From Actinomycetota bacterium (GTDB lineage: Bacteria; Actinomycetota; Actinomycetes; Nanopelagicales; Nanopelagicaceae): DNA of 16,041 nucleotides. Below the pieces are notes generated by a model. That model did not search any database. It saw only the letters and a list, made by a program, of their open reading frames with translations, and was not told where the DNA came from. Positions 813-15,846 of the stretch are shown piece by piece. Position 1 is the stretch's first letter. Each line of letters begins with the position of its first letter. Location of the stretch: NCBI GenBank assembly GCA_027730465.1, contig JAQCGQ010000005.1, positions 1 to 16,041 of the forward strand. Direction: 5' to 3'. The translations under genes and the position numbers were made by a program.

Positions 813-983
813 TTAGTAGTGCCCACCCCAATAACGCCAGCTATATTCAGCAAGGCTAGTACCAACAAAAAGTATTGCTACATGTAGGGCTAGCGCAAAT
901 GCTTTTAGAAGAGTTAATTTAATTTTTGAAGTTGTTTTAGTCATGACGATTATCAGCTCTTGCTCAAATATAGTTTTCATCAT
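813..983 (-). CDS. Small single-pass membrane protein, second gene of the B12-riboswitch operon
   Basis: This 56-residue open frame starts at ATG 983, eight bases after the stop of the riboswitch-controlled upstream gene. A good Shine-Dalgarno AGGAG (989-993) lies five bases before the first of two tandem ATGs. A third in-frame ATG at residue 14 could give a 43-residue form. The visible architecture is a short hydrophilic start, a basic stretch (KTTSKIKLTLLK), one hydrophobic segment (about residues 25-44) and a short aromatic, Trp/His-containing tail ending WGGHY. I recognise no family. The size, single helix and C-terminal histidine recall the small cobalt-transport subunit CbtB, but the His-rich CbtB tail is absent. 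Proximity and the strong ribosome site suggest it is co-transcribed and works with the upstream secreted protein, perhaps as a membrane partner. That role is inference. Confidence 0.62.
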   Translation of the reverse strand: MMKTIFEQELIIVMTKTTSKIKLTLLKAFALALHVAILFVGTSLAEYSWRYWGGHY

Positions 984-991
984 CTCAACTC

Positions 992-1519
992 CTAATCAGG
1001 GAACTTTACATCGCCATTAGTGACAAAAACAAACGCTAGGCCATCACCTGGTTTCATGGCTAACTCTGCCACTCCAACTTGTGCCCACGCCCATTTTCCA
1101 TTTAAGTCAAACGGGTTTGGAATTATTTGCCATCTTTTTTCAAGCACCGCCCAGTAAGCAAAAGCCGCAGGCATCTCCTTGCACTCTTCAATGTAATCTT
1201 CATGCCCTTTCACACCGATTGCTTGGTTCGGTTTAGGCAAATTATTTAATCGACAAACTACATTATTTCCATATTTATTAGTTCCTTCTAATTTAAAATT
1301 TGCATTTTGCATCAATTCTAAAGCTGTAATTTCACCAGTTACTGGCAGACATTTTTCAAAGTCAGTATTGGAAGAATCTAAGGAGCCATAATCAATAAGA
1401 ACATTTACACAATTTGCTCGAGTTTGAGTAGACCAAAGGGAAGTACCACCTACAACTAGAACCGCGACAAATATGGCAGAAAAAAACTTTCTCGCCTCAG
1501 TAGATATATCGCTAAACAT
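992..1519 (-). CDS. Secreted transcobalamin-like (DUF4430-type) protein under B12 riboswitch control
   Basis: The protein has 175 residues. Residues about 12-29 are hydrophobic, followed by TQTRA-N, which gives an export signal with likely cleavage after Ala35 (or an uncleaved anchor). The remaining 140 residues look like the beta-rich DUF4430/transcobalamin C-terminal domain. They show TALELMQNANF (66-75), a KYGNNVVCRLNN strand (82-93), the Tyr-Trp pair of AYWAVLEKRW (121-130) and a late GVAELAMKPGDGLAFVFV strand (149-166). Four cysteines (37, 57, 89, 113) could form two disulfides outside the cell. In eukaryotic transcobalamins this domain closes over the vitamin; here it stands alone, without the alpha/alpha-barrel half. 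The cobalamin riboswitch directly upstream supports a role in binding corrinoids. ATG 1519 has a GAGAGG ribosome site five bases upstream that can be hidden in a hairpin. Family assignment was by eye. Confidence 0.62.
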   Translation of the reverse strand: MFSDISTEARKFFSAIFVAVLVVGGTSLWSTQTRANCVNVLIDYGSLDSSNTDFEKCLPVTGEITALELMQNANFKLEGTNKYGNNVVCRLNNLPKPNQAIGVKGHEDYIEECKEMPAAFAYWAVLEKRWQIIPNPFDLNGKWAWAQVGVAELAMKPGDGLAFVFVTNGDVKFPD

Positions 1520-1696
1520 TAATGCCTCTCAAGCTGAGAGGTTTACGAAAGCGCAGAGACTCACTAGGTGAGAAACCTCGCCCCGCAATCCTCGACGGGT
1601 GGATAAGTAAATGTGTTGGGTAATCCGACTTGAAAAAATCTTCTCACGGTTGCGGGACAGCGCCGGATTTACACCGACTTCCCCCAATTACATTTA
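1520..1696 (-). promoter_or_regulatory. Cobalamin (B12) riboswitch, compact form
   Basis: Read on the minus strand, 1635-1685 carries the B12 riboswitch core: GGGAA, then CGGTGTAAATCCG, GCTGTCCCGCAAC and, after a short spacer, AAGTCGGATTACC. The core is closed by an outer stem: TAAATGT (minus, 1696-1690) pairs with ACATTTA (1614-1608), and TTGGG (1687-1683) pairs with CCCAA (1620-1616). The aptamer is therefore only about 89 nt and lacks the long peripheral arms of classical AdoCbl riboswitches. A TTGCGGG (1588-1582) downstream is perfectly complementary to CCCGCAA (1656-1650) in the core and could make the kissing interaction that senses ligand. The switch lies immediately before the transcobalamin-like gene at 1519. 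On this strand it cannot control the aldo/keto reductase at 1804. Confidence 0.9.
1525..1579 (-). promoter_or_regulatory. Expression platform: Shine-Dalgarno sequestor hairpin and competing anti-sequestor
   Basis: The 17-base stretch CCTCTCAGCTTGAGAGG (minus strand, 1541-1525) folds into a 7-bp hairpin with a 3-nt loop. Its 3' arm contains the GAGAGG ribosome site of the gene starting at 1519. An alternative pairing, GAGGTTT (1579-1573) with AAACCTC (1544-1538), consumes part of the 5' arm and so excludes the hairpin. A small CTCAC/GTGAG hairpin sits inside the alternative loop. This arrangement implies translational control: B12 binding would favour the sequestor. The direction of switching is inferred. 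Confidence 0.6.
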
Positions 1697-1762
1697 TAAA
1701 GCCTTCAATATTTGGTTGTAGGTCAATTGTTGTATCAATGCAGGCTTAATAGCAACTCACCA

Positions 1763-7067: not shown

Positions 7068-7835
7068 ATGCGTCAGGCTCACTTAAGATTCATTGGGACT
7101 TTGCCGGCCGCCACCTTCTTACTTACTAGCTGCTCTGGTGGTGAAGTGTCTGGTCTTGGGTTTGAAGAGGGATTATCGAGCGTAAATGAGCAGTCACTCT
7201 CACTTTGGCAGGGTGCTTGGATAGCGGCTGCAGTAGTTGGCATATTTACATTAATTTTAATCTTATGGCCAGTTTTCTTTCATCGTAAAAAAGATGAAAA
7301 CTTTCCAAAGCAAACTCAGTACAACATTCCAGTAGAGATTACTTACACAGTCATACCATTTATTATCGTTGCAGTACTTTTCTATTTCACAGTCCAGCGT
7401 GAATCTCGAATTCTAAAGATTACACCTGATAATCAGGTCTCACACTTTATTGATGTAGTTGGTTTCCAGTGGTCATGGCAATTTAAGTATAAGGATGCCG
7501 GTGATTACAAGAGCGCAACTGTGACTGGAACTCCGGCGCAGCCACCAACGCTTTACTTACCATTAGGTGAAAATGTGAGATTCACATTAACCGCAAATGA
7601 TGTAGTTCACGGCTTTTGGATACCAGCTTTCATGATTCAAATGCAAAATTTGCCTGGAGTTACAAACCAACTGGAATTCGCGGCTACTAAATTAGGAACC
7701 TTCCCAGGCAGGTGTAATATTTTGTGCGGAAGAAATCACTCGCAGATGCTATTTAACGTTAAAGTAGTAACCCCAGCAGAGTATGAGAGTTATATTCAAT
7801 CCTTGGTAGCCGAAGAGAAAGCAGTGATTTCATGA
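7068..7835 (+). CDS. ctaC: Cytochrome c oxidase subunit II (lipoprotein, CuA)
   Basis: Subunit II accepts electrons from the cytochrome c domain of the bc1 complex at a binuclear CuA centre outside the membrane. The 255-residue protein begins with a lipoprotein signal whose lipobox Leu19-Thr-Ser-Cys22 predicts a lipidated N-terminus. Two membrane helices follow (about 49-71 and 91-108), then a cupredoxin domain. CuA ligands His181 ([11 protein letters not shown]), Cys216, Cys220, His224 and Met227 are present. The ligand loop reads [14 protein letters not shown], with Ile218 where nearly all relatives have Glu (CAELC). That Glu supplies a backbone ligand to CuA and a side-chain ligand to the interfacial Mg. 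ATG 7068 is weakly served by AGAAGG 13 bases upstream. The stop overlaps the ctaD start (ATGA). Confidence 0.95.
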
Positions 7836-9493
7836 CCACCTACGCCCAGCGCCCAGTCATATCATCATCTGCGCCAGCGCCAGCGCCAACTTCAAAAGGA
7901 AGACTACTTGTTAAGTGGCTTACTTCAACTGATCACAAAACAATCGGCTATTTATATTTAATTACTTCTTTTGCCTGGTTTTTAATTGCTGGATTACTCG
8001 CATTATTACTTCGAGGCGAGCTAGCTCGTCCAGGAATGCAATTTTTAAGTAATGAGCAGTACAACCAAATCTTTACCATGCATGGCACAATCATGCTATT
8101 AATGTTTGCAACACCATTATTTGTTGGTTTTGCCAATGTGATTATGCCTCTACAAATTGGCGCAGCAGATGTTGCATTTCCAAGATTAAACATGCTTTCT
8201 TATTGGTTGTATTTATTTGGTGGAACAATGGCATTTATCGGATTTATAACACCGGGGGGCGCAGCCTCTTTTGGTTGGACCGCATACGCACCTTTATCTA
8301 GAGTTGAGTACTCACCGGGTATTGGTTCAGATCTTTGGCTTGTAGGTCTTGCAATCGGTGGACTTGGCACAATCCTTGGTGGGGTTAACTTTGTAACCAC
8401 GATTTTAACTATGCGAGCACCTGGTATGACTATGTTTAGAATGTCAATATTTAGTTGGAACGTATTGCTTACTTCAATTTTAGTTCTAATTGCATTCCCA
8501 CCACTTGCTGCAGCATTTTTAGCACTTGAATCTGATCGATTATTTGGTTCTCATATCTTTGATCCTGCAAATGGCGGAGCTATGCTTTGGCAACATTTAT
8601 TTTGGTTTTTTGGTCACCCTGAGGTTTATATCTTGGCACTACCATTTTTTGGAATCGCAACTGAAATCCTGCCAGTCTTCTCTCGTAAGCCAATCTTTGG
8701 CTATAAAGGATTAATTGCAGCAACTATTGCAATTGCAGCATTATCTGTTGCAGTTTGGGCGCACCATATGTATGCAAGTGGGCAAGTGCTCCTGCCGTTC
8801 TTCTCGTTTATGACGTTTCTAATTGGTGTTCCAACTGGAGTTAAGTTCTTTAACTGGATCGGCACTATGTGGCGAGGATCAGTTACCTTTGAAACTCCAA
8901 TGCTTTTTGTTCTAGGTTTCTTAGTAACATTTTTATTTGGTGGAATTACTGGAATAATTTTGGCTTCACCGCCTCTTGATTTTGCAGTCTCTGCCTCCTA
9001 CTTCGTAGTTGCTCACTTCCATTATGTGTTATTTGGAACTGTGGTCTTTGCTATGTTTGCTGGTTTCTATTTCTGGTGGCCAAAGATGACTGGCAAGATG
9101 CTAAATGAAACTTTAGGAAAGATACATTTCTGGACCTTATTTTTTGGCTTTCACATAACATTTTTAATTCAGCACTGGCTAGGAATTAAAGGTTTCCCAC
9201 GTCGCTACGCTGATTACCTAGCTACTGATGGCTTCACATTTATGAATATGGTTTCAACTGTCGGTTCAGGTTTGCTTGCACTATCAATGATTCCATTTGC
9301 AATTAATATTTGGATCACTCGCTCAACTCCTTCGGTAACAAGTGATGATCCTTGGGGTTATGGCTCATCCCTTGAATGGGCGACTTCATGCCCACCGCCA
9401 AGACATAACTTTAAATCAATGCCAAGAATTAGAAGTGAGCGACCAGCATTTGATCTTCACTACCCACATATGGCAGCAAAGGCAGATCACTAA
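7832..9493 (+). CDS. ctaD: Cytochrome c oxidase subunit I (aa3-type)
   Basis: This is the catalytic, proton-pumping subunit, with 553 residues and about twelve membrane helices. Heme and copper ligands are His84 (MHGTIM), His262 in [10 protein letters not shown] with the Glu264 and Tyr266 typical of A-type oxidases, His311-His312 (WAHHMY), and His395 (heme a3) and His397 (heme a) in [11 protein letters not shown]. The D channel entrance (Asp113 in [12 protein letters not shown]) and the K-channel lysine (Lys338 in VPTGVK) are present. The helix before AHFHY reads [10 protein letters not shown], so the His-Asp pair that binds Mg in other A-type oxidases (bovine 368/369) is Ser387-Ala388. The N-terminus has an Ala-Pro repeat coded by three GCGCCA units (7871-7888). 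It overlaps ctaC by four bases and ctaF by one, and is the middle gene of the operon. Confidence 0.98.
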
Positions 9494-9894
9494 TGAAAAC
9501 TGGCTGGATGCTATTTGTTGGTCTTGCAATTTTTTACGCAATCCTTGCAGTCATTTATTGGCAAGTTGGTGGGGAAGCTGTCGGTATCACCGCTATTGCA
9601 TTAAGTGCTGGCCTATCAATAATTGTAGGATTTTATCTTTGGTTTACTAGCCGAAGATTAGGAAATTTATTACCAGAAGATAATGTGCAAGGTGAGATTG
9701 CAGATTCTGCTGGTGAACTTGGTTTCTTCTCACCACATTCTTGGTGGCCGCTGCCGCTGGCATTATCAATTTGCGCAGTTGGCACCGGATTAATAATTGG
9801 CTGGTGGCTGGTACTAATTGCAGTGGGGGCGATGATAATTTCAATAATTGGTCTTGTTCTACAGTATGAACGCCCTTCTAACTCTGTGCACTAG
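9493..9894 (+). CDS. ctaF: Cytochrome c oxidase subunit IV, actinobacterial type
   Basis: CtaF is a small membrane subunit found in the actinobacterial aa3 oxidase and III-IV supercomplex. The 133-residue protein has four predicted helices, about 5-22, 29-51, 82-101 and 103-123. The recognisable signature GELGFFSPHSWWPL (75-88) lies between helices two and three. Its ATG shares its first base with the last base of the ctaD stop codon, so translation is coupled. It carries no metal ligands of its own. Confidence 0.94.
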   Translation: MKTGWMLFVGLAIFYAILAVIYWQVGGEAVGITAIALSAGLSIIVGFYLWFTSRRLGNLLPEDNVQGEIADSAGELGFFSPHSWWPLPLALSICAVGTGLIIGWWLVLIAVGAMIISIIGLVLQYERPSNSVH

Positions 9895-9896
9895 TT

Positions 9897-10355
9897 ATGG
9901 CAGAGCGGGCTGAAATACTCGATACAGCAACACCTTTGCTGTTTAAAGCACAGATTCAAATTAAAGCTCCTGCTAAGAATATATTTGATTTTATATCCAG
10001 GCCAAATAATCATCCTCTAATGGATGGCTCAGGAATGGTTAAGGGCAGATTTAAAGGCTCCGATAATCTTTACCTCGGCGCTAAATTTGGAATGAAAATG
10101 AGATATGGCATTCCCTACGTTATAACAAATCAAGTTGTTGAGTTTAAAGATAATAATCTAATTGCTTGGCGACACTTGATGCGAAATGTTTGGCGTTATG
10201 AACTGCAAGAAATTGATCCTACTACCACATTAGTTATTGAAACTTGGGATGGCAGAAATGCGCTATCTAGATGGTGGGTAAGTGATTCAGATTATTGGGT
10301 TCCAAAAGCTATGGCGAAAACTTTAGTAAAGCTAAAAGGAATTTGCGAGAGTTAA
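9897..10355 (+). CDS. SRPBCC-superfamily (START/polyketide-cyclase-like) protein
   Basis: The 152-residue soluble protein fits the helix-grip SRPBCC fold. A first strand (LLFKAQIQIKAP) is followed by the typical helix AKNIFDFISRPNNHPLMDG, then a run of strands (GAKFGMKMRYGIPYVITNQVVEFK, LIAWRHLMRNVWRYELQEI, TTLVIETWDG). A long amphipathic C-terminal helix comes last (YWVPKAMAKTLVKLKGI). Such proteins hold hydrophobic ligands in a central cavity; some are enzymes, many are carriers, and no catalytic residues are diagnostic here. ATG 9897 lies two bases after the ctaF stop, so it belongs to the ctaCDF transcript, perhaps handling a lipid, quinone or heme-related ligand; that is speculation. It ends four bases before the convergent oxidase gene. 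Confidence 0.82.
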   Translation: MAERAEILDTATPLLFKAQIQIKAPAKNIFDFISRPNNHPLMDGSGMVKGRFKGSDNLYLGAKFGMKMRYGIPYVITNQVVEFKDNNLIAWRHLMRNVWRYELQEIDPTTTLVIETWDGRNALSRWWVSDSDYWVPKAMAKTLVKLKGICES

Positions 10356-10359
10356 ATAC

Positions 10360-11682
10360 CTAGCGATTTATTAGTGGATCAATAATTGCAGCAAGTAAAC
10401 TTGGTCTTTTAGTGAATTTTTCTTCATAATCGGCAATAACAGTTGCCTTAAACCCAGCATTTACTGCAAAATATCGAATTGGCTCTGGCTCCCATCTGCC
10501 GATTGCTTGATCAATAAAAGGCAGGTTTGCAGTTTTTATCCTACTGATTTTTTCTGCCAAAGTTTTTGCCACTAAGTATGACAGTGTTACGCCATCGCCA
10601 ACATAGCCACCAATTTCAGCTCTACCAGTTGTCTGATCAAAATTTAAATATGCCTGCCACCTTCTCGTTAGTGCAACAGCGCCACCCCAGCGGTACTCAA
10701 ACTTTGAATCAGCAATTTGTGGAAACCAAGATCTAGCGCGCCTTTCTAACGCCGAGTGCATTCGATTATCTATCTCACTTCGCTCTGAAAGTCGGGAAAA
10801 TAATTTATAGCGAACACCCCGCCCGCCGAGAGCTAATCTGTTATCATCGGTAATTTGGGCGTAGGTGATTAAATGGCAAGCCTCTTGAAATGTTGCACGC
10901 TGGGTATTTCGTATTTCTTTTATTACCTCACTAGATAATGGCTCAGTTGCAACCATTAACGAATAAATCGGTATTTGTCTATTTCCCATCCATTTTCTAG
11001 GTGTAAATGCCTCAGTTGCTCTAATTGAAAATATGCAATTAACCTTAAAGCCATTGACTTCAACTTGCTTATCCCTTATCTCACTCACACTAGATTGTTC
11101 ATAGATTATTACACCATTTTTTTCTAAATGATCAGCAAGGGCTCTTACTAATTTAAATGGATCTAGTGCGGCGCAGTGCGGTGTAAAGACTGAGCCAATA
11201 GCAGAGGGGATATTTAATAGCTCGGTGGTTTGGGATTTATTTAGTAATTGATGTTCGTCATCAATTTCCTTTGAGATTCTGCTTAGTTGAGCGTTACCTC
11301 TTGCAAATAATAAAGCCCCACCTTTGGCATAATCAATCTGCCAATTATTTGATTTAGCAATCTGGCCAATCTCATCAATGGATTTAGTTATTGCAGTACG
11401 TAGATTCTTATAGCTTTCTAGACCATTCTCTTTAATTAGTCTATTACTTGAGGTTGGGTACTCAGCAGATGCCCATCCACCATTTCTACCGCTCGCCCCA
11501 AATCCAACATACTCCTTTTCAAAAACTGCAATTTTAAGATTTGGTTGAAATTGTTTTAAATGAAATGCGCTCCAAAGTCCACTAAATCCAGCTCCAATAA
11601 TCGCTACATCAAATGATTCATTTTTGTTTATTGATTTACGATAACTGATATTTTGATCACCTTGCCACAGCGAAGAATTCAC
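10360..11682 (-). CDS. FAD-dependent amine/amino-acid oxidase of the DAO family (PuuB-like)
   Basis: The 440-residue flavoprotein has an N-terminal Rossmann motif DVAIIGAGFSGLWSAFHL (Gly30-x-Gly32-x-x-Gly35) and the acidic end of the second strand in VFEKEYVGFGASGRNGGW (53-70), the motif typical of glycine/D-amino-acid oxidase relatives. A middle region (CAALDPFKLVRALADHLEKNG) and a C-terminal FAD-contacting segment (GYVGDGVTLSYLVAKTLAEKI) complete the fold. The SGRNGG pattern and length are closest to gamma-glutamylputrescine oxidoreductases, but the substrate is not determined. There is no signal peptide, so it is cytoplasmic. The start is GTG 11682 with no ribosome site and a promoter immediately upstream, suggesting a leaderless mRNA. 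It follows qcrB on the same strand but after 78 bases, so it is probably separately transcribed. Confidence 0.87.
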   Translation of the reverse strand: MNSSLWQGDQNISYRKSINKNESFDVAIIGAGFSGLWSAFHLKQFQPNLKIAVFEKEYVGFGASGRNGGWASAEYPTSSNRLIKENGLESYKNLRTAITKSIDEIGQIAKSNNWQIDYAKGGALLFARGNAQLSRISKEIDDEHQLLNKSQTTELLNIPSAIGSVFTPHCAALDPFKLVRALADHLEKNGVIIYEQSSVSEIRDKQVEVNGFKVNCIFSIRATEAFTPRKWMGNRQIPIYSLMVATEPLSSEVIKEIRNTQRATFQEACHLITYAQITDDNRLALGGRGVRYKLFSRLSERSEIDNRMHSALERRARSWFPQIADSKFEYRWGGAVALTRRWQAYLNFDQTTGRAEIGGYVGDGVTLSYLVAKTLAEKISRIKTANLPFIDQAIGRWEPEPIRYFAVNAGFKATVIADYEEKFTKRPSLLAAIIDPLINR

Positions 11683-11688
11683 ATCATA

Positions 11689-11716
11689 ATTATGGTTTAT
11701 TTGATAGAAATAGCAA
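11689..11716 (-). promoter_or_regulatory. Candidate leaderless promoter for the DAO-family oxidase
   Basis: On the minus strand TTGCTA (11716-11711), a 16-base spacer and CATAAT (11694-11689) resemble -35 and -10 elements. They are followed by six bases and then the GTG start at 11682. Transcription starting there would give an mRNA beginning at the start codon, which fits the absence of a Shine-Dalgarno. Leaderless mRNAs are common in Actinobacteria. Confidence 0.42.
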
Positions 11717-11760
11717 ACATGACAGAAGTTGTAATTAAATAATACAGTCTTAGTAAAACT

Positions 11761-13353
11761 TTAGTGGTGCCCACCTTCAAGCTCTTTAACCTCAGAAGCA
11801 GTTGGTTTTGCAATATTTTCAGCATTAGCGGCGCTAAATCTTGCCTGTAGTCTCGCTCTTATTCCCTTTGGATTTAATACCCCGCCAGCATCTTCTTTAA
11901 CCAGTGCAATTGCCTTTGGTTGCTCATGTTGGGTAAGGGCGAATTTCTTCTCAGCAGATAATTCTTCATGAATCTCAACAAACTCACCATGTGGAAGCAT
12001 TACTAACCTTCCAGTCTCCTTACCATGTAGGACTAGTTCACGATCAGCTCTTTGAAGGGATAAGCAAATACGCTTGGTAATCACAAAGGCGAGTGGTGGT
12101 AGAACAATAATTCCAATCCGAGAGAACCACATGATCTGATTGATACTTAAGTCAAAATGGGTCGCAATGAGGTCATTTCCACCATTGATCATCGCAATAA
12201 CCATAAATGTTAGAGACATTACGCCAAGGGCTGTTCTATTTGGCACATTTCTTGGGCGATCAAGCAAATGGTGTTCACGCTTATCACCACTTAGCCAGCT
12301 TTCAATAAATGGGTAAAGCGCCATACCAGTGAAAATAATTCCAGGAATTATCAAACCTGGAAGCAAAATATTCCAAGAGATTGTGTATCCAAAGATGTAA
12401 GTTTCAAGTGGAGGGGCCATTCGAACTAATCCATCTAGCCAACCCATGTACCAATCAGGTTGTGAACCGGCAGAGATCTGCCCTGGTGTGTATGGACCGT
12501 AGAGCCAGATTGGGTTAATGGAGGCGACTGCTCCTAAGAATGCAGTAACACCAAATACGATAAAGAAGAAACCACCAGCTTTTGCCATATACACAGGCAT
12601 AAATGGGTAGCCAACAACATTTTTCTCAGTTCTTCCTGGTCCTGGATACTGAGTGTGCTTCTGATACCAAACTAACATTAAGTGAACTGTAATTAAAGCC
12701 AAGAAAATTCCAGGCAGTAAGAGCACATGCACAATATAAATACGCGGAATAAATACTTCACCTGGGAATGCCCCACCAAACGCAAAGAAAGATAAATACG
12801 TACCAACTACTGGAATGGATTGAATAATTGCATGGGCAATTCTTACTCCAGTTCCTGATAAAAGATCATCTGGAAGTGAGTAACCAAGGAAGCCTTCAAC
12901 AATTCCAAGAGTAAGTAATGCAATTCCTAAGATCCAGTTAAACTCACGAGGCTTTCTAAAGGCACCAGTAAAGAAAACTCTAAGTAGGTGAACCACAATT
13001 GCAGCCATAAAAATCAGCGCTGCCCAGTGATGGATTTGGCGCATTAATAGCCCGCCTCTTACATCAAAAGAGATATGAAGAGCAGAGGCGTAAGCAGCGC
13101 TCATCTCAACATCCTTTAATGGTTGATAACTTCCTTCATAAACCACATGACGCATTGAAGGATCAAACCAAAATGTTAAAAAGGTTCCAGAGAGTAATAA
13201 AATTACAAAAGAATAAAGTGCTATCTCACCTAACATAAATGACCAGTGATCAGGAAAAACCTTTTGCAGATTTTTCTTCATCCAAGCAGCAGCCCCAGTT
13301 CGCTCATCTACATAATTAGCAACTGTTCCGGCAACTCGCTCACGTGCGGTCAT
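11761..13353 (-). CDS. qcrB: Cytochrome b of the actinobacterial bc1 complex
   Basis: QcrB oxidises menaquinol and moves electrons between two b hemes in the membrane. It has 530 residues, with a long soluble C-terminal tail (about 430-530) typical of Actinobacteria. Heme ligands are His108 and His122 (RQIHHW and VVHLLRVFF) and His209 and His224 (YIVHVLLL and ITVHLMLVWY), with the b6-like 15-residue spacing in the second helix. The Qo-site motif is PDWY (299-302) in place of the classical PEWY. An N-terminal VANYVDERTGAA segment matches actinobacterial homologues. The ATG overlaps the qcrA stop by four bases (ATGA), so translation is coupled. The protein ends with Gly-Gly-His-His. No terminator hairpin with a T-run is visible after the stop. 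Confidence 0.97.
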   Translation of the reverse strand: MTARERVAGTVANYVDERTGAAAWMKKNLQKVFPDHWSFMLGEIALYSFVILLLSGTFLTFWFDPSMRHVVYEGSYQPLKDVEMSAAYASALHISFDVRGGLLMRQIHHWAALIFMAAIVVHLLRVFFTGAFRKPREFNWILGIALLTLGIVEGFLGYSLPDDLLSGTGVRIAHAIIQSIPVVGTYLSFFAFGGAFPGEVFIPRIYIVHVLLLPGIFLALITVHLMLVWYQKHTQYPGPGRTEKNVVGYPFMPVYMAKAGGFFFIVFGVTAFLGAVASINPIWLYGPYTPGQISAGSQPDWYMGWLDGLVRMAPPLETYIFGYTISWNILLPGLIIPGIIFTGMALYPFIESWLSGDKREHHLLDRPRNVPNRTALGVMSLTFMVIAMINGGNDLIATHFDLSINQIMWFSRIGIIVLPPLAFVITKRICLSLQRADRELVLHGKETGRLVMLPHGEFVEIHEELSAEKKFALTQHEQPKAIALVKEDAGGVLNPKGIRARLQARFSAANAENIAKPTASEVKELEGGHH

Positions 13354-14342
13354 GATTTTCTCTCCCAGAAGCTAGGACCAACTGCCTCTGTAAATGGTTG
13401 TTTTGCAATTAAATATCCATCAGCATCAACGGTGATAGCCAATTGTGGCAGAGGTCGAGCAGAAGGACCAAAGATAACCTTTGCGGCGCGGGTCACATCA
13501 AAGGTTGATTGATGGCATGGGCAAAGTAAATGTTTTGTAGTTTGCTCATATAAAGCAACTGCACATCCCATATGTGAGCAAATCTTTGAGAAGGCAATAA
13601 TTCCCTCATGAGTCCAAGATAAACGCTCAGCATCTAATTGAAACTCTGATGGGCGAAGCCTAATTAATAAAACTGCATCCTTTGCAATATCTTCAAGAGT
13701 TCGCTTTTGCCCAGCTAAAAGTGCTGGCATAACCTGGGCAACACCGCCAACTTCTAGATCACTAGCTTTAATAGGGCGATCACCTGGATCAGTGACTAAT
13801 TTTGTGCCAGTCTTCCAATTCGTTTCATTTAAAGAGTTACCAGGAAGTGGTCCAAGGTCTCGAAGTAAAATTACAGCTGGTAAACCAGCAAGACCTACTG
13901 CTGCTGCCAAACTTCTTTTAATAAGTGGGCGACGCCCTAGTCCTGCTTGCTCAGCACCTTCTTTAGCAGTCTTAACAAATTCGCTTCGATCTTCTGGCTC
14001 TGATTTTAATTCATGACGATACTCATTTATCTCTTGATCTGGCATTAAAGTTTTTGCCCAATGAACTGCGCCAAAGCCAATAAATAAAAGGCTAAGTGCC
14101 ATACCCATACCGATACCTAATTGATGGGCGTTGGTATTTCCCATAATTGGTAAGAAGATGAATACATCATCTTTGATAAAAAAGAAGGAGTAGATAAACA
14201 ACAAGGTTCCAAAAGCCGATAGTGAAAATAAGACTGCAACTTGTCGCTCTGCGCGCTTTGCAGCGATTGGATCAATATCTGCTTTACGATGAACATGTTC
14301 TGGCAAACCTGGGTCTGCTAGAGGCTCTAACTCTTTCGACAT
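13350..14342 (-). CDS. qcrA: Rieske iron-sulfur subunit of the bc1 complex
   Basis: QcrA passes electrons from quinol at the Qo site to QcrC through a 2Fe-2S cluster. The 330-residue protein is of the long actinobacterial type. Two N-terminal helices (about 35-56 and 73-95) are followed by a cytoplasmic loop and a twin-arginine-like GRRPLIKRSLAAAVG stretch leading into the third helix (about residues 136-160). The Rieske head follows. Cluster ligands are Cys255 and His257 in CSHMGC and Cys274 and His277 in CPCH; Cys260 and Cys276 form the usual disulfide. QSTFDVTRAAKVIFGPSARPLPQL is the expected continuation. ATG 14342 starts three bases after the qcrC stop. Confidence 0.97.
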   Translation of the reverse strand: MSKELEPLADPGLPEHVHRKADIDPIAAKRAERQVAVLFSLSAFGTLLFIYSFFFIKDDVFIFLPIMGNTNAHQLGIGMGMALSLLFIGFGAVHWAKTLMPDQEINEYRHELKSEPEDRSEFVKTAKEGAEQAGLGRRPLIKRSLAAAVGLAGLPAVILLRDLGPLPGNSLNETNWKTGTKLVTDPGDRPIKASDLEVGGVAQVMPALLAGQKRTLEDIAKDAVLLIRLRPSEFQLDAERLSWTHEGIIAFSKICSHMGCAVALYEQTTKHLLCPCHQSTFDVTRAAKVIFGPSARPLPQLAITVDADGYLIAKQPFTEAVGPSFWERKS

Positions 14343-14345
14343 TTC

Positions 14346-15140
14346 CTACCTTGCCTTTGCAGTTAGCCAAACAGCGATGCCAATTAAAATTCCAAGGCCA
14401 AAGGTCCAAACTAATAAGCCTTCAGTTACTGGCCCTACGCGGCCAAGAGCTGCCCCACCTAAGTTTGGCTCACTCTCTGCTGCTTTAATCCATTTAATAA
14501 TTGAAAGTTTTTCCTCAGGTGTAATAATTGTGTCAGAAAATACTGGCATTGATTGCGGACCAGTAATCATTACTTCATAAATATGTTTTGCCTCTACTCC
14601 CATAACTGAAGGAGCGTATTTTCCTTGAGTGAGTGCACCACCTTGGCCAGCGAAGTTATGACACATTGCGCAGTTATTTCTAAATAATTCTCCACCCTCA
14701 GCAGTATTGCCATCTCGCTCCCAAGTTATCTCCTCATTTGTATATGCCCGAGGACCGGGTGCAAGGGATGCAACATAAGCAGCAAGGGCAGCAACCTGCT
14801 CCTCGTTATAGACCGGCGTCTTACGTGCGGCTTGTTGACTCATATCCTGCATTGGCATGCGTCCGGTACCAACTTGAAAATCAACTGATGCTGCGCCAAC
14901 ACCAATTAAGGAAGGAGCAACAGCCCCCCCTTCTAAGTTTAAACCATGACAAGAGGAGCAACCTTTTAAGAAAATTTCTTTACCCTCCTCAATAATTGTG
15001 GATTTGGCTGAGGCGCTCATTGTATTTTTAGCTGGAGCAGCTGTTGCTGCTGAAAATGTTAAACCTAAACCAGTTAGAGCTAACATAATTAAAATTGGCA
15101 GAGCCCCTTTATGGCGACGGTATTTAGAAATAAATTTCAT
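14346..15140 (-). CDS. qcrC: Diheme cytochrome c subunit of the bc1 complex
   Basis: QcrC replaces soluble cytochrome c in Actinobacteria by carrying electrons directly from the Rieske protein to CuA of the oxidase. From ATG 15140 the protein has 264 residues. An N-terminal signal/anchor helix (about 13-32) is followed by two cytochrome c domains with heme sites CSSCH (61-65) and CAMCH (157-161), and by a C-terminal membrane helix (about 241-260). Candidate axial methionines lie in GRMPMQDM (93-100) and in the GPQSMPVFSD segment. A longer frame starting at GTG 15185 would begin inside ctaE. I prefer ATG 15140, five bases after the ctaE stop, because a basic signal sequence begins there. No ribosome site is seen, so translation is probably coupled to ctaE. 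Confidence 0.96.
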   Translation of the reverse strand: MKFISKYRRHKGALPILIMLALTGLGLTFSAATAAPAKNTMSASAKSTIIEEGKEIFLKGCSSCHGLNLEGGAVAPSLIGVGAASVDFQVGTGRMPMQDMSQQAARKTPVYNEEQVAALAAYVASLAPGPRAYTNEEITWERDGNTAEGGELFRNNCAMCHNFAGQGGALTQGKYAPSVMGVEAKHIYEVMITGPQSMPVFSDTIITPEEKLSIIKWIKAAESEPNLGGAALGRVGPVTEGLLVWTFGLGILIGIAVWLTAKAR

Positions 15141-15145
15141 AATCG

Positions 15146-15772
15146 TTATTTGATTAGGTAGATTGCAGAAAATAGTGCGATCCACACAATATCTACAAAG
15201 TGCCAGTAGTAGGAGACCACAATCGCTGTGGTTGCTTGGCTATGACCAAATTTTTGTGCCCTAAAAACTCTAATTAATACAATTAAGAATGCAATTAAGC
15301 CACCTGTCACGTGCAGCCCATGAAAACCAGTTGTCATATAAAAAACTGAGCCATATGCGTTTGAGGAAAGTGATAATCCTTCATGAACTAATTCAGCGTA
15401 CTCATATACTTGACCAGCAATAAAAAATGCACCCATTAAAAAAGTTAAGGCAAACCATTCACGCATTCCCCATTTACTAAATTGCCATAAGCTGCCAGAT
15501 CTGCGTGCTTGAAAACGCTCAGCCGCAAATACTCCGTACTGACATGTAACAGAGGAGAGTACTAAAATGGTTGTATTAGTTGCAGAAAATGGAATATTTA
15601 ACATCCCGGCAGATTCAGCCCAAACTTTTGGCCCTTGAACTGCTCTAGTGGTGAAATACATTGCAAAGAGAGCGGCAAAAAACATTAACTCAGATGCCAG
15701 CCAAACGATGGTGCCAACTGCGACTAGGTTAGGACGATTTGTCTTAACTGGAGTCTGGGCATATGTAGTCAC
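15146..15772 (-). CDS. ctaE: Cytochrome c oxidase subunit III
   Basis: Subunit III is an all-helical membrane subunit that stabilises the oxidase and proton uptake. Family landmarks are [29 protein letters not shown] (in two parts around the conserved Ser-Glu), [34 protein letters not shown] and [19 protein letters not shown] at the C-terminus, which closely resemble mycobacterial CtaE. About five helices are predicted, as in Actinobacteria. The start is uncertain. ATG 15811 gives 221 residues, and GTG 15772 gives 208 beginning [16 protein letters not shown] choose GTG because AATAAT lies seven bases upstream as a leaderless -10, and because no ribosome site precedes either. It is the first gene of ctaE-qcrC-qcrA-qcrB. 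Confidence 0.93.
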
Positions 15773-15779
15773 GGAGGTG

Positions 15780-15785
15780 ATTATT
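15780..15785 (-). promoter_or_regulatory. Candidate -10 element for a leaderless ctaE-qcrCAB transcript
   Basis: AATAAT on the minus strand matches TATAAT at five of six positions and sits seven bases before GTG 15772. No good -35 is present at the right distance. An alternative -10, TATAAA, overlaps the upstream ATG at 15811, and its transcript would lack that ATG, so either reading argues against the longer start. Confidence 0.3.
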
Positions 15786-15846
15786 CCCGAAATAGATACC
15801 CAATGCCTCATTTATAGCGGCGGTAGTAGCCCTATGATTTGGTGAA

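Follow-up and report, generated by a model that had tools for sequence, protein, structure and literature searches.

A two-gene cassette behind a cobalamin riboswitch in an acI actinobacterium: a probable outer, substrate-capturing part of B12 acquisition

The window, i.e., the whole stretch of 16,041 nucleotides that was analyzed, carries on its minus strand a cobalamin riboswitch followed by two small genes. This cassette is probably the outer, substrate-capturing part of B12 acquisition in acI bacteria resembling Candidatus Nanopelagicus, the importer being encoded elsewhere in the genome. The capture module is real, conserved and linked to the riboswitch; stand-alone bacterial domains of this kind are already known and the missing importer is the interesting part. 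These small lake bacteria appear to need B12, yet the B12 importers looked for went undetected. At their riboswitch site stands a capture protein, and the translocator of the window's lineage must lie elsewhere or be new in kind. The B12 route in this lineage is now a testable question.

The genus of the window is taken to be Candidatus Nanopelagicus or a near relative (acI-B), a label that is not certain: it comes from a fragment 93% identical (P0035), named Candidatus Nanopelagicus sp., and from one of the loci (L067), whereas another locus of the same genus (L064) is titled Candidatus Planktophila sp.

Riboswitch and genes of the cassette

The order on the minus strand is riboswitch, 175-aa ORF, 56-aa ORF; beyond the last of these lies the end of a convergent gene, gcvT-like by eye. 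The AdoCbl riboswitch aptamer (1573..1705, minus strand) matches Rfam RF01482 with 53.9 bits against a gathering threshold of 50 (E 1.1e-7), i.e., above the Rfam cut-off. The related model RF00174 has a single match in the window's own assembly (0.91 Mb, 68% complete), at the same place. The cobalamin riboswitch that the original prediction placed ahead of a gene for an exported protein is thus borne out; the range given for the whole locus, 813-1696, contains both ORFs but clips the riboswitch slightly, its true end being 1705. An Rfam scan finds the riboswitch upstream of the capture gene in 12 of 14 related loci, the two without a match being L014, cut short within the gene by the end of its contig, and the Arthrobacter locus L015.

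The ribosome-binding site GAGAGG, 5 nt ahead of the start codon, is the 3' arm of a predicted hairpin, CCUCUC-AGCUU-GAGAGG (1525..1541, minus strand), which forms the expression platform. The hairpin is present in the predicted minimum-energy fold of 12 of 13 genus loci (the exception is L012), and in 10 of 13 a segment of 6-7 nt further upstream could serve as an alternative pairing partner, both counts being taken with no chance control. The predicted fold suggests a translational OFF switch. Aptamer and hairpin are both seen, and switching would take place as follows: AdoCbl bound to the riboswitch would lead the hairpin to hide the ribosome-binding site, so that the proteins would be made when B12 is scarce.

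The first gene (992..1519, minus strand) encodes a 175-aa protein, apparently membrane-anchored and extracytoplasmic, with a predicted N-terminal helix (residues 5-30), no lipobox (by eye) and a transcobalamin-beta-like (SLBB) domain at residues ~34-170. Structure prediction gives this domain a beta-grasp fold like that of the C-terminal domain of transcobalamin. In the model, strands 77-80, 84-91, 102-104 and 107-109 follow a helix (66-72) and might include a counterpart of the cobalamin-contacting hairpin insert of the clade. Sequence-based searches for the fold (Pfam, NCBIfam, PDB sequences and a profile of 22 relatives) yielded no meaningful match, and weak matches of the capture family to RimM, TtgR and peptide deformylase are at chance level. 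PF14478 (DUF4430) matches none of the 22 relatives at E up to 10, nor the window protein at E up to 1. The DUF4430/transcobalamin beta domain proposed earlier is therefore upheld by predicted fold but not by sequence profile. Compared with the beta domain of human transcobalamin, intrinsic factor and haptocorrin, the window protein has no alpha/alpha barrel, is membrane anchored and is 14-21% identical over the aligned part. Its identity to the bacterial RUMGNA_00854 of R. gnavus (3u7z, 96-97 residues) is 10%.

The 175-aa protein is likely an exported B12-capture protein. The N-terminal helix would hold it at the membrane and the beta domain would bind a corrinoid outside, a binding suggested by homologs located beside ECF transporters and metH. 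Extracellular corrinoid capture, as originally proposed, is thus retained as the likely role, but a bacterial protein made of the beta domain only is not itself new (Burroughs et al. 2007, PMC1796856). In the part of that paper available, stand-alone bacterial transcobalamin-like domains are described, generally in predicted operons with CbiO/CbiQ genes; B12 scavenging is proposed for them, and the hosts named are low-GC Gram-positives, planctomycetes and euryarchaea. The window protein is comparable to this transcobalamin-like SLBB clade, i.e., an exported beta-grasp domain, stand-alone in bacteria, with predicted B12 scavenging. It differs from the clade as described there by its actinobacterial host, the AdoCbl riboswitch, a locus with no CbiO/CbiQ and the 56-aa membrane partner.

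This partner (813..983, minus strand) is characterized by a single helix (by eye) and a conserved C-terminal tail, (A/E)(Y/F/L)xWR(Y/F/L)W(G/A). Both ORFs are as first described, a 56-residue single-helix protein following the 175-aa gene. A small ORF of 53-56 aa (counted from a chosen Met) lies after the capture gene in all 14 genus loci, window included; with the riboswitch counts above, the survey of relatives suggested at the outset does recover the two-gene cassette after cobalamin riboswitches. Twelve locus pairs were picked by hand for dN/dS. The ratio for the small ORF is below 1 in 12 of 12 (0.06-0.53, some pairs having few changes). For the 175-aa gene it is below 1 in the 10 of 10 pairs with a finite estimate (0.04-0.21), one pair being saturated and one not computed. 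Given the 14 loci, the conserved C-terminal motif and these ratios, the 56-aa ORF is very probably coding. Its product may be a membrane partner, its tail probably at the outer face, that would aid docking or hand-over.

The same riboswitch site in relatives

The capture protein is found in 14 of 25 genomes of the genus vs. none of the 271 other genomes of the family. Four genomes of the genus (G010, G015, G018 and G022) have the riboswitch beside the same aldo-keto reductase, then an SCO2322 family protein and EcfT. The SCO2322 protein was scanned for with NF040672 in G018 and G022, and is alike by eye and by alignment in G010 and G015. Where the contig is long enough (G015 and G022), a double EcfA and an S component continue up to the gcvT-like gene, i.e., into the position of the window's cassette. 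In these two genomes synteny with the window extends over the whole ECF operon, in G010 and G018 over its genes next to the riboswitch. Between the S component of G015 and the S part of the Arthrobacter fusion, identity is 39%.

B12-type S and T profiles match in 4 of the 25 genomes, the same four in which SCO2322 is seen, and in none of the 14 cassette genomes (G000, G001, G005 and G013 included). ECF genes are absent at the window's riboswitch site and the capture protein stands in their place. An ECF transporter at this riboswitch site in some close relatives, and its absence there in the window's lineage, go beyond the earlier note and make the stronger point. From the distribution of the capture protein in genus and family, the ECF form is probably ancestral and the two-gene cassette derived. 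The absence of any ABC, ECF or BtuB component, claimed from the first reading, is true of the stretch 813-1696; B12-type ECF S and T components, FecCD and ABC_membrane_2 are also undetected genome-wide in the cassette genomes.

A scan of GTDB species genomes gave 109 stretches that encode a relative; the best 80 of these 109 divide into 10 loci from the window's genus and 70 that, judging by genus names, we take to belong to the order Micrococcales. Among these best 80, every one of the 70 Micrococcales loci has ECF-similar ORFs next to the homolog or overlapping it, on the same strand; only 69 of these loci are independent because the ECF queries come in part from one of them (Arthrobacter ipis). 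Of the 10 loci from the window's genus, some of them short, none has an ECF-similar ORF beside the homolog. The S part is the best ECF match in 67 of the 70, and the contig-cut L096, L101 and L138 show only T or A. A metH-like ORF is located within the examined flank in 47 of the 70. No cobalamin riboswitch is found at any of the 10 Micrococcales loci scanned, nor, for 4 of these, at E up to 1; thus the B12 link there rests on the metH neighbours and on the similarity of the S component.

The window's cassette has its riboswitch site and synteny in common with actinobacterial ECF transporters of the SCO2322 (NF040672) type, and a homologous capture protein in common with the Micrococcales type, whose ECF transporters go with a lipoprotein of the capture family. 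Unlike both, the window's lineage has no detected T or S component. Relatives at 44-49% identity (P0041-P0044 and P0046, one with a lipobox by eye) may link the acI type with the Micrococcales type as intermediates.

SCO2322 and the two proteins of the cassette

HHalign aligns the 56-aa profile with the SCO2322 N-terminus, where a signal or anchor helix precedes RYWG, at a probability of 94%. The score is 37.1, vs. at most 27.3 for 200 block shuffles, the comparison having been chosen after the likeness was noticed. In an hmmsearch of a redundant pool of 14,318 ORFs and proteins, the small ORF has 22 non-self matches up to E 10; 15 of them, including the seven best, are SCO2322, at E 0.28 or worse. 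This likeness, together with the absence of ECF genes from the site, is what a decaying, functionless remnant of a transporter operon would display. The dN/dS ratios of both genes already disfavour such a remnant and the riboswitch is kept, so that decay is very improbable.

SCO2322 may also be related to the capture domain itself. Its model (pLDDT 76.1) has no fold match in the PDB; the fold aligners used follow chain order and would miss a permutation. When the first two strands of SCO2322 are moved to the end, the order of strands and helices is that of the capture domain, save one short strand (102-104 or 107-109). HHalign of SCO2322 vs. the capture family gives 21.2 over 36 columns in the native order and 33.4 over 104 columns for the best of 22 rotations; the best of 200 column shuffles reaches 23.7, and the reversed alignment, when rotated, never exceeds 12.0. 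In another run (21 rotations) the values are 22.4 native, 33.5 rotated (34.3 for the best rotation) and 20.6 for the best of 100 shuffles. The rotated HHalign probability is just 65-69%, and the match partly spans the artificial junction (DMPA ahead of the aromatic motif). Two of the four conserved cysteines align in HHalign, i.e., capture C57 with C133 and C89 with C161 of SCO2322, the two others agreeing by rough position only. A circularly permuted version of the capture domain is thus a lead, not a proof. If true, two dissimilar-looking partners of B12 ECF transporters would be one domain in two chain orders.

Importers and B12 enzymes in the genus

Incomplete assemblies make up most of the 25 genus genomes; G001, G005 and G013, each a single contig, are 99-100% complete. 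The FecCD permease (BtuCD-F) is found in one of the 25, G014, which has no cassette. ABC_membrane_2 (PF06472), which we take to cover the BacA/Rv1819c-type importer, is found in none of the 25, while the same search matches 2 of 14 controls; CobS likewise matches none of the 25 and 10 of the 14 controls. CbiQ has strong matches in 11 genomes (G002, G004, G007, G008, G010, G011, G012, G015, G017, G018 and G021). As a B12 ECF component it was rejected in G017 (L041), the sole one of the 11 inspected, where it adjoins a CbiM-like gene (by eye) and thus belongs to a cobalt/nickel system. In G001 and G000, PF02361 has weak matches that look RodA/FtsW-like by eye. PF02361 is insensitive to B12-type EcfT (12.9 bits for that of G015), hence the dedicated T-component search.

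Twelve of the 14 cassette genomes contain either a long frame resembling MetH or NrdJ above the cut-off, and G000 and G009 have NrdJ pieces below it. G005 and G013 have NrdJ over the cut-off and a MetH-like gene, named from its B12-binding domain (frame lengths 1168 and 1162 aa) and not from a MetH model; G001 keeps NrdJ, with no MetH-like frame. A MetE-type domain is absent from G001, G005 and G013, and in the genus is found only in G020, which has no riboswitch. Cassette, ECF or FecCD is present in 19 of the 25 genomes, 17 of which carry at least one of the two enzymes, as a long MetH-like frame or as NrdJ above the cut-off; the other two are G000 and G009 with their NrdJ pieces, that of G000 possibly ambiguous. 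Among the six genomes with none of the three, five have neither enzyme and G016 has both. The one-sided Fisher test of import candidate vs. B12 enzyme gives 1.1e-4 if the two NrdJ pieces are counted and 2.2e-3 otherwise, uncorrected for kinship and incompleteness. G016 (76% complete), with MetH-like and NrdJ sequence and no import candidate found, counts against the cassette as outer part of B12 acquisition.

That presence tracks B12 enzymes, along with the AdoCbl riboswitch and the metH neighbours, makes it improbable that the ligand is a related tetrapyrrole such as heme, or a corrinoid precursor, although predictions for SLBB beta-grasp domains include several ligands (PMC1796856, as far as available). 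Planktophila is reported as heme-auxotrophic in the part seen of PMC12381374.

G005 and G013 have a single cobalamin riboswitch match each, with the cassette behind it; CbiQ, B12-type EcfT and S, FecCD and ABC_membrane_2 are undetected in both. The two proteins might therefore suffice for import on their own, with the beta-domain protein and the 56-aa helix oligomerising into a minimal, ATPase-free B12 translocator. We know of no precedent for two single-helix proteins carrying so large a solute and hold this to be unlikely. Just as doubtful is a more specific proposal, in which acI-B would import B12 via a new ABC- and ECF-free system: its B12-regulated part would be only the tethered transcobalamin-like domain and a 56-aa protein derived from the N-terminus of SCO2322, SCO2322 itself being a permuted version of the domain. 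The predicted membrane anchor and the absence of a linked transporter would also suit storage or retention, i.e., a protein that holds corrinoid at the cell surface for import by a promiscuous permease; the coupling of homologs to ECF transporter genes speaks against it, and we consider it quite unlikely. With the cassette as capture part, B12 would cross the membrane by an importer encoded elsewhere, which would not be BtuCD, a B12-type ECF transporter or BacA-like, so far as these are detectable.

Kang et al. 2017 (PMC5301498), in the part available, predict an ECF module behind cobalamin riboswitches in each acI genome studied. The accessible text of Hamilton et al. 2017 (PMC5574706) predicts acI-B to be an AdoCbl auxotroph, names a putative cobalamin transporter in acI-A and finds no transporters for the new acI auxotrophies, adenosylcobalamin excepted. 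This exception slightly lowers confidence in the capture-part reading; it may reflect a B12 transporter annotation noticed there, the named one being of acI-A. Among titles and beginnings of abstracts, neither the cassette nor an ECF-less version is described.

Several other loci of the genus may be mentioned. G014 (L060) combines a FecCD permease with ORFs that, by eye, resemble a substrate-binding protein and an ATPase; the genome has a MetH-like gene but neither a riboswitch match nor the cassette. This locus is a candidate BtuFCD replacement. G001 has a second cobalamin riboswitch (C1:248000-258000, L059) ahead of class Ib nrdI-nrdE and an nrdF-like ORF, with class II NrdJ also in the genome, possibly a B12-dependent switch between two ribonucleotide reductases. 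G002, G019 and G023 (L050-L052) contain a stand-alone B12-binding domain in a 142-aa frame, possibly a mutase subunit. Two public MAG records titled Bifidobacterium breve (L066 and L070) carry sequence of the window's genus and are probably mislabelled. In the window itself, positions 7068-15811 contain ordinary respiratory genes (cytochrome c oxidase subunits and bc1 complex, by eye from translations).
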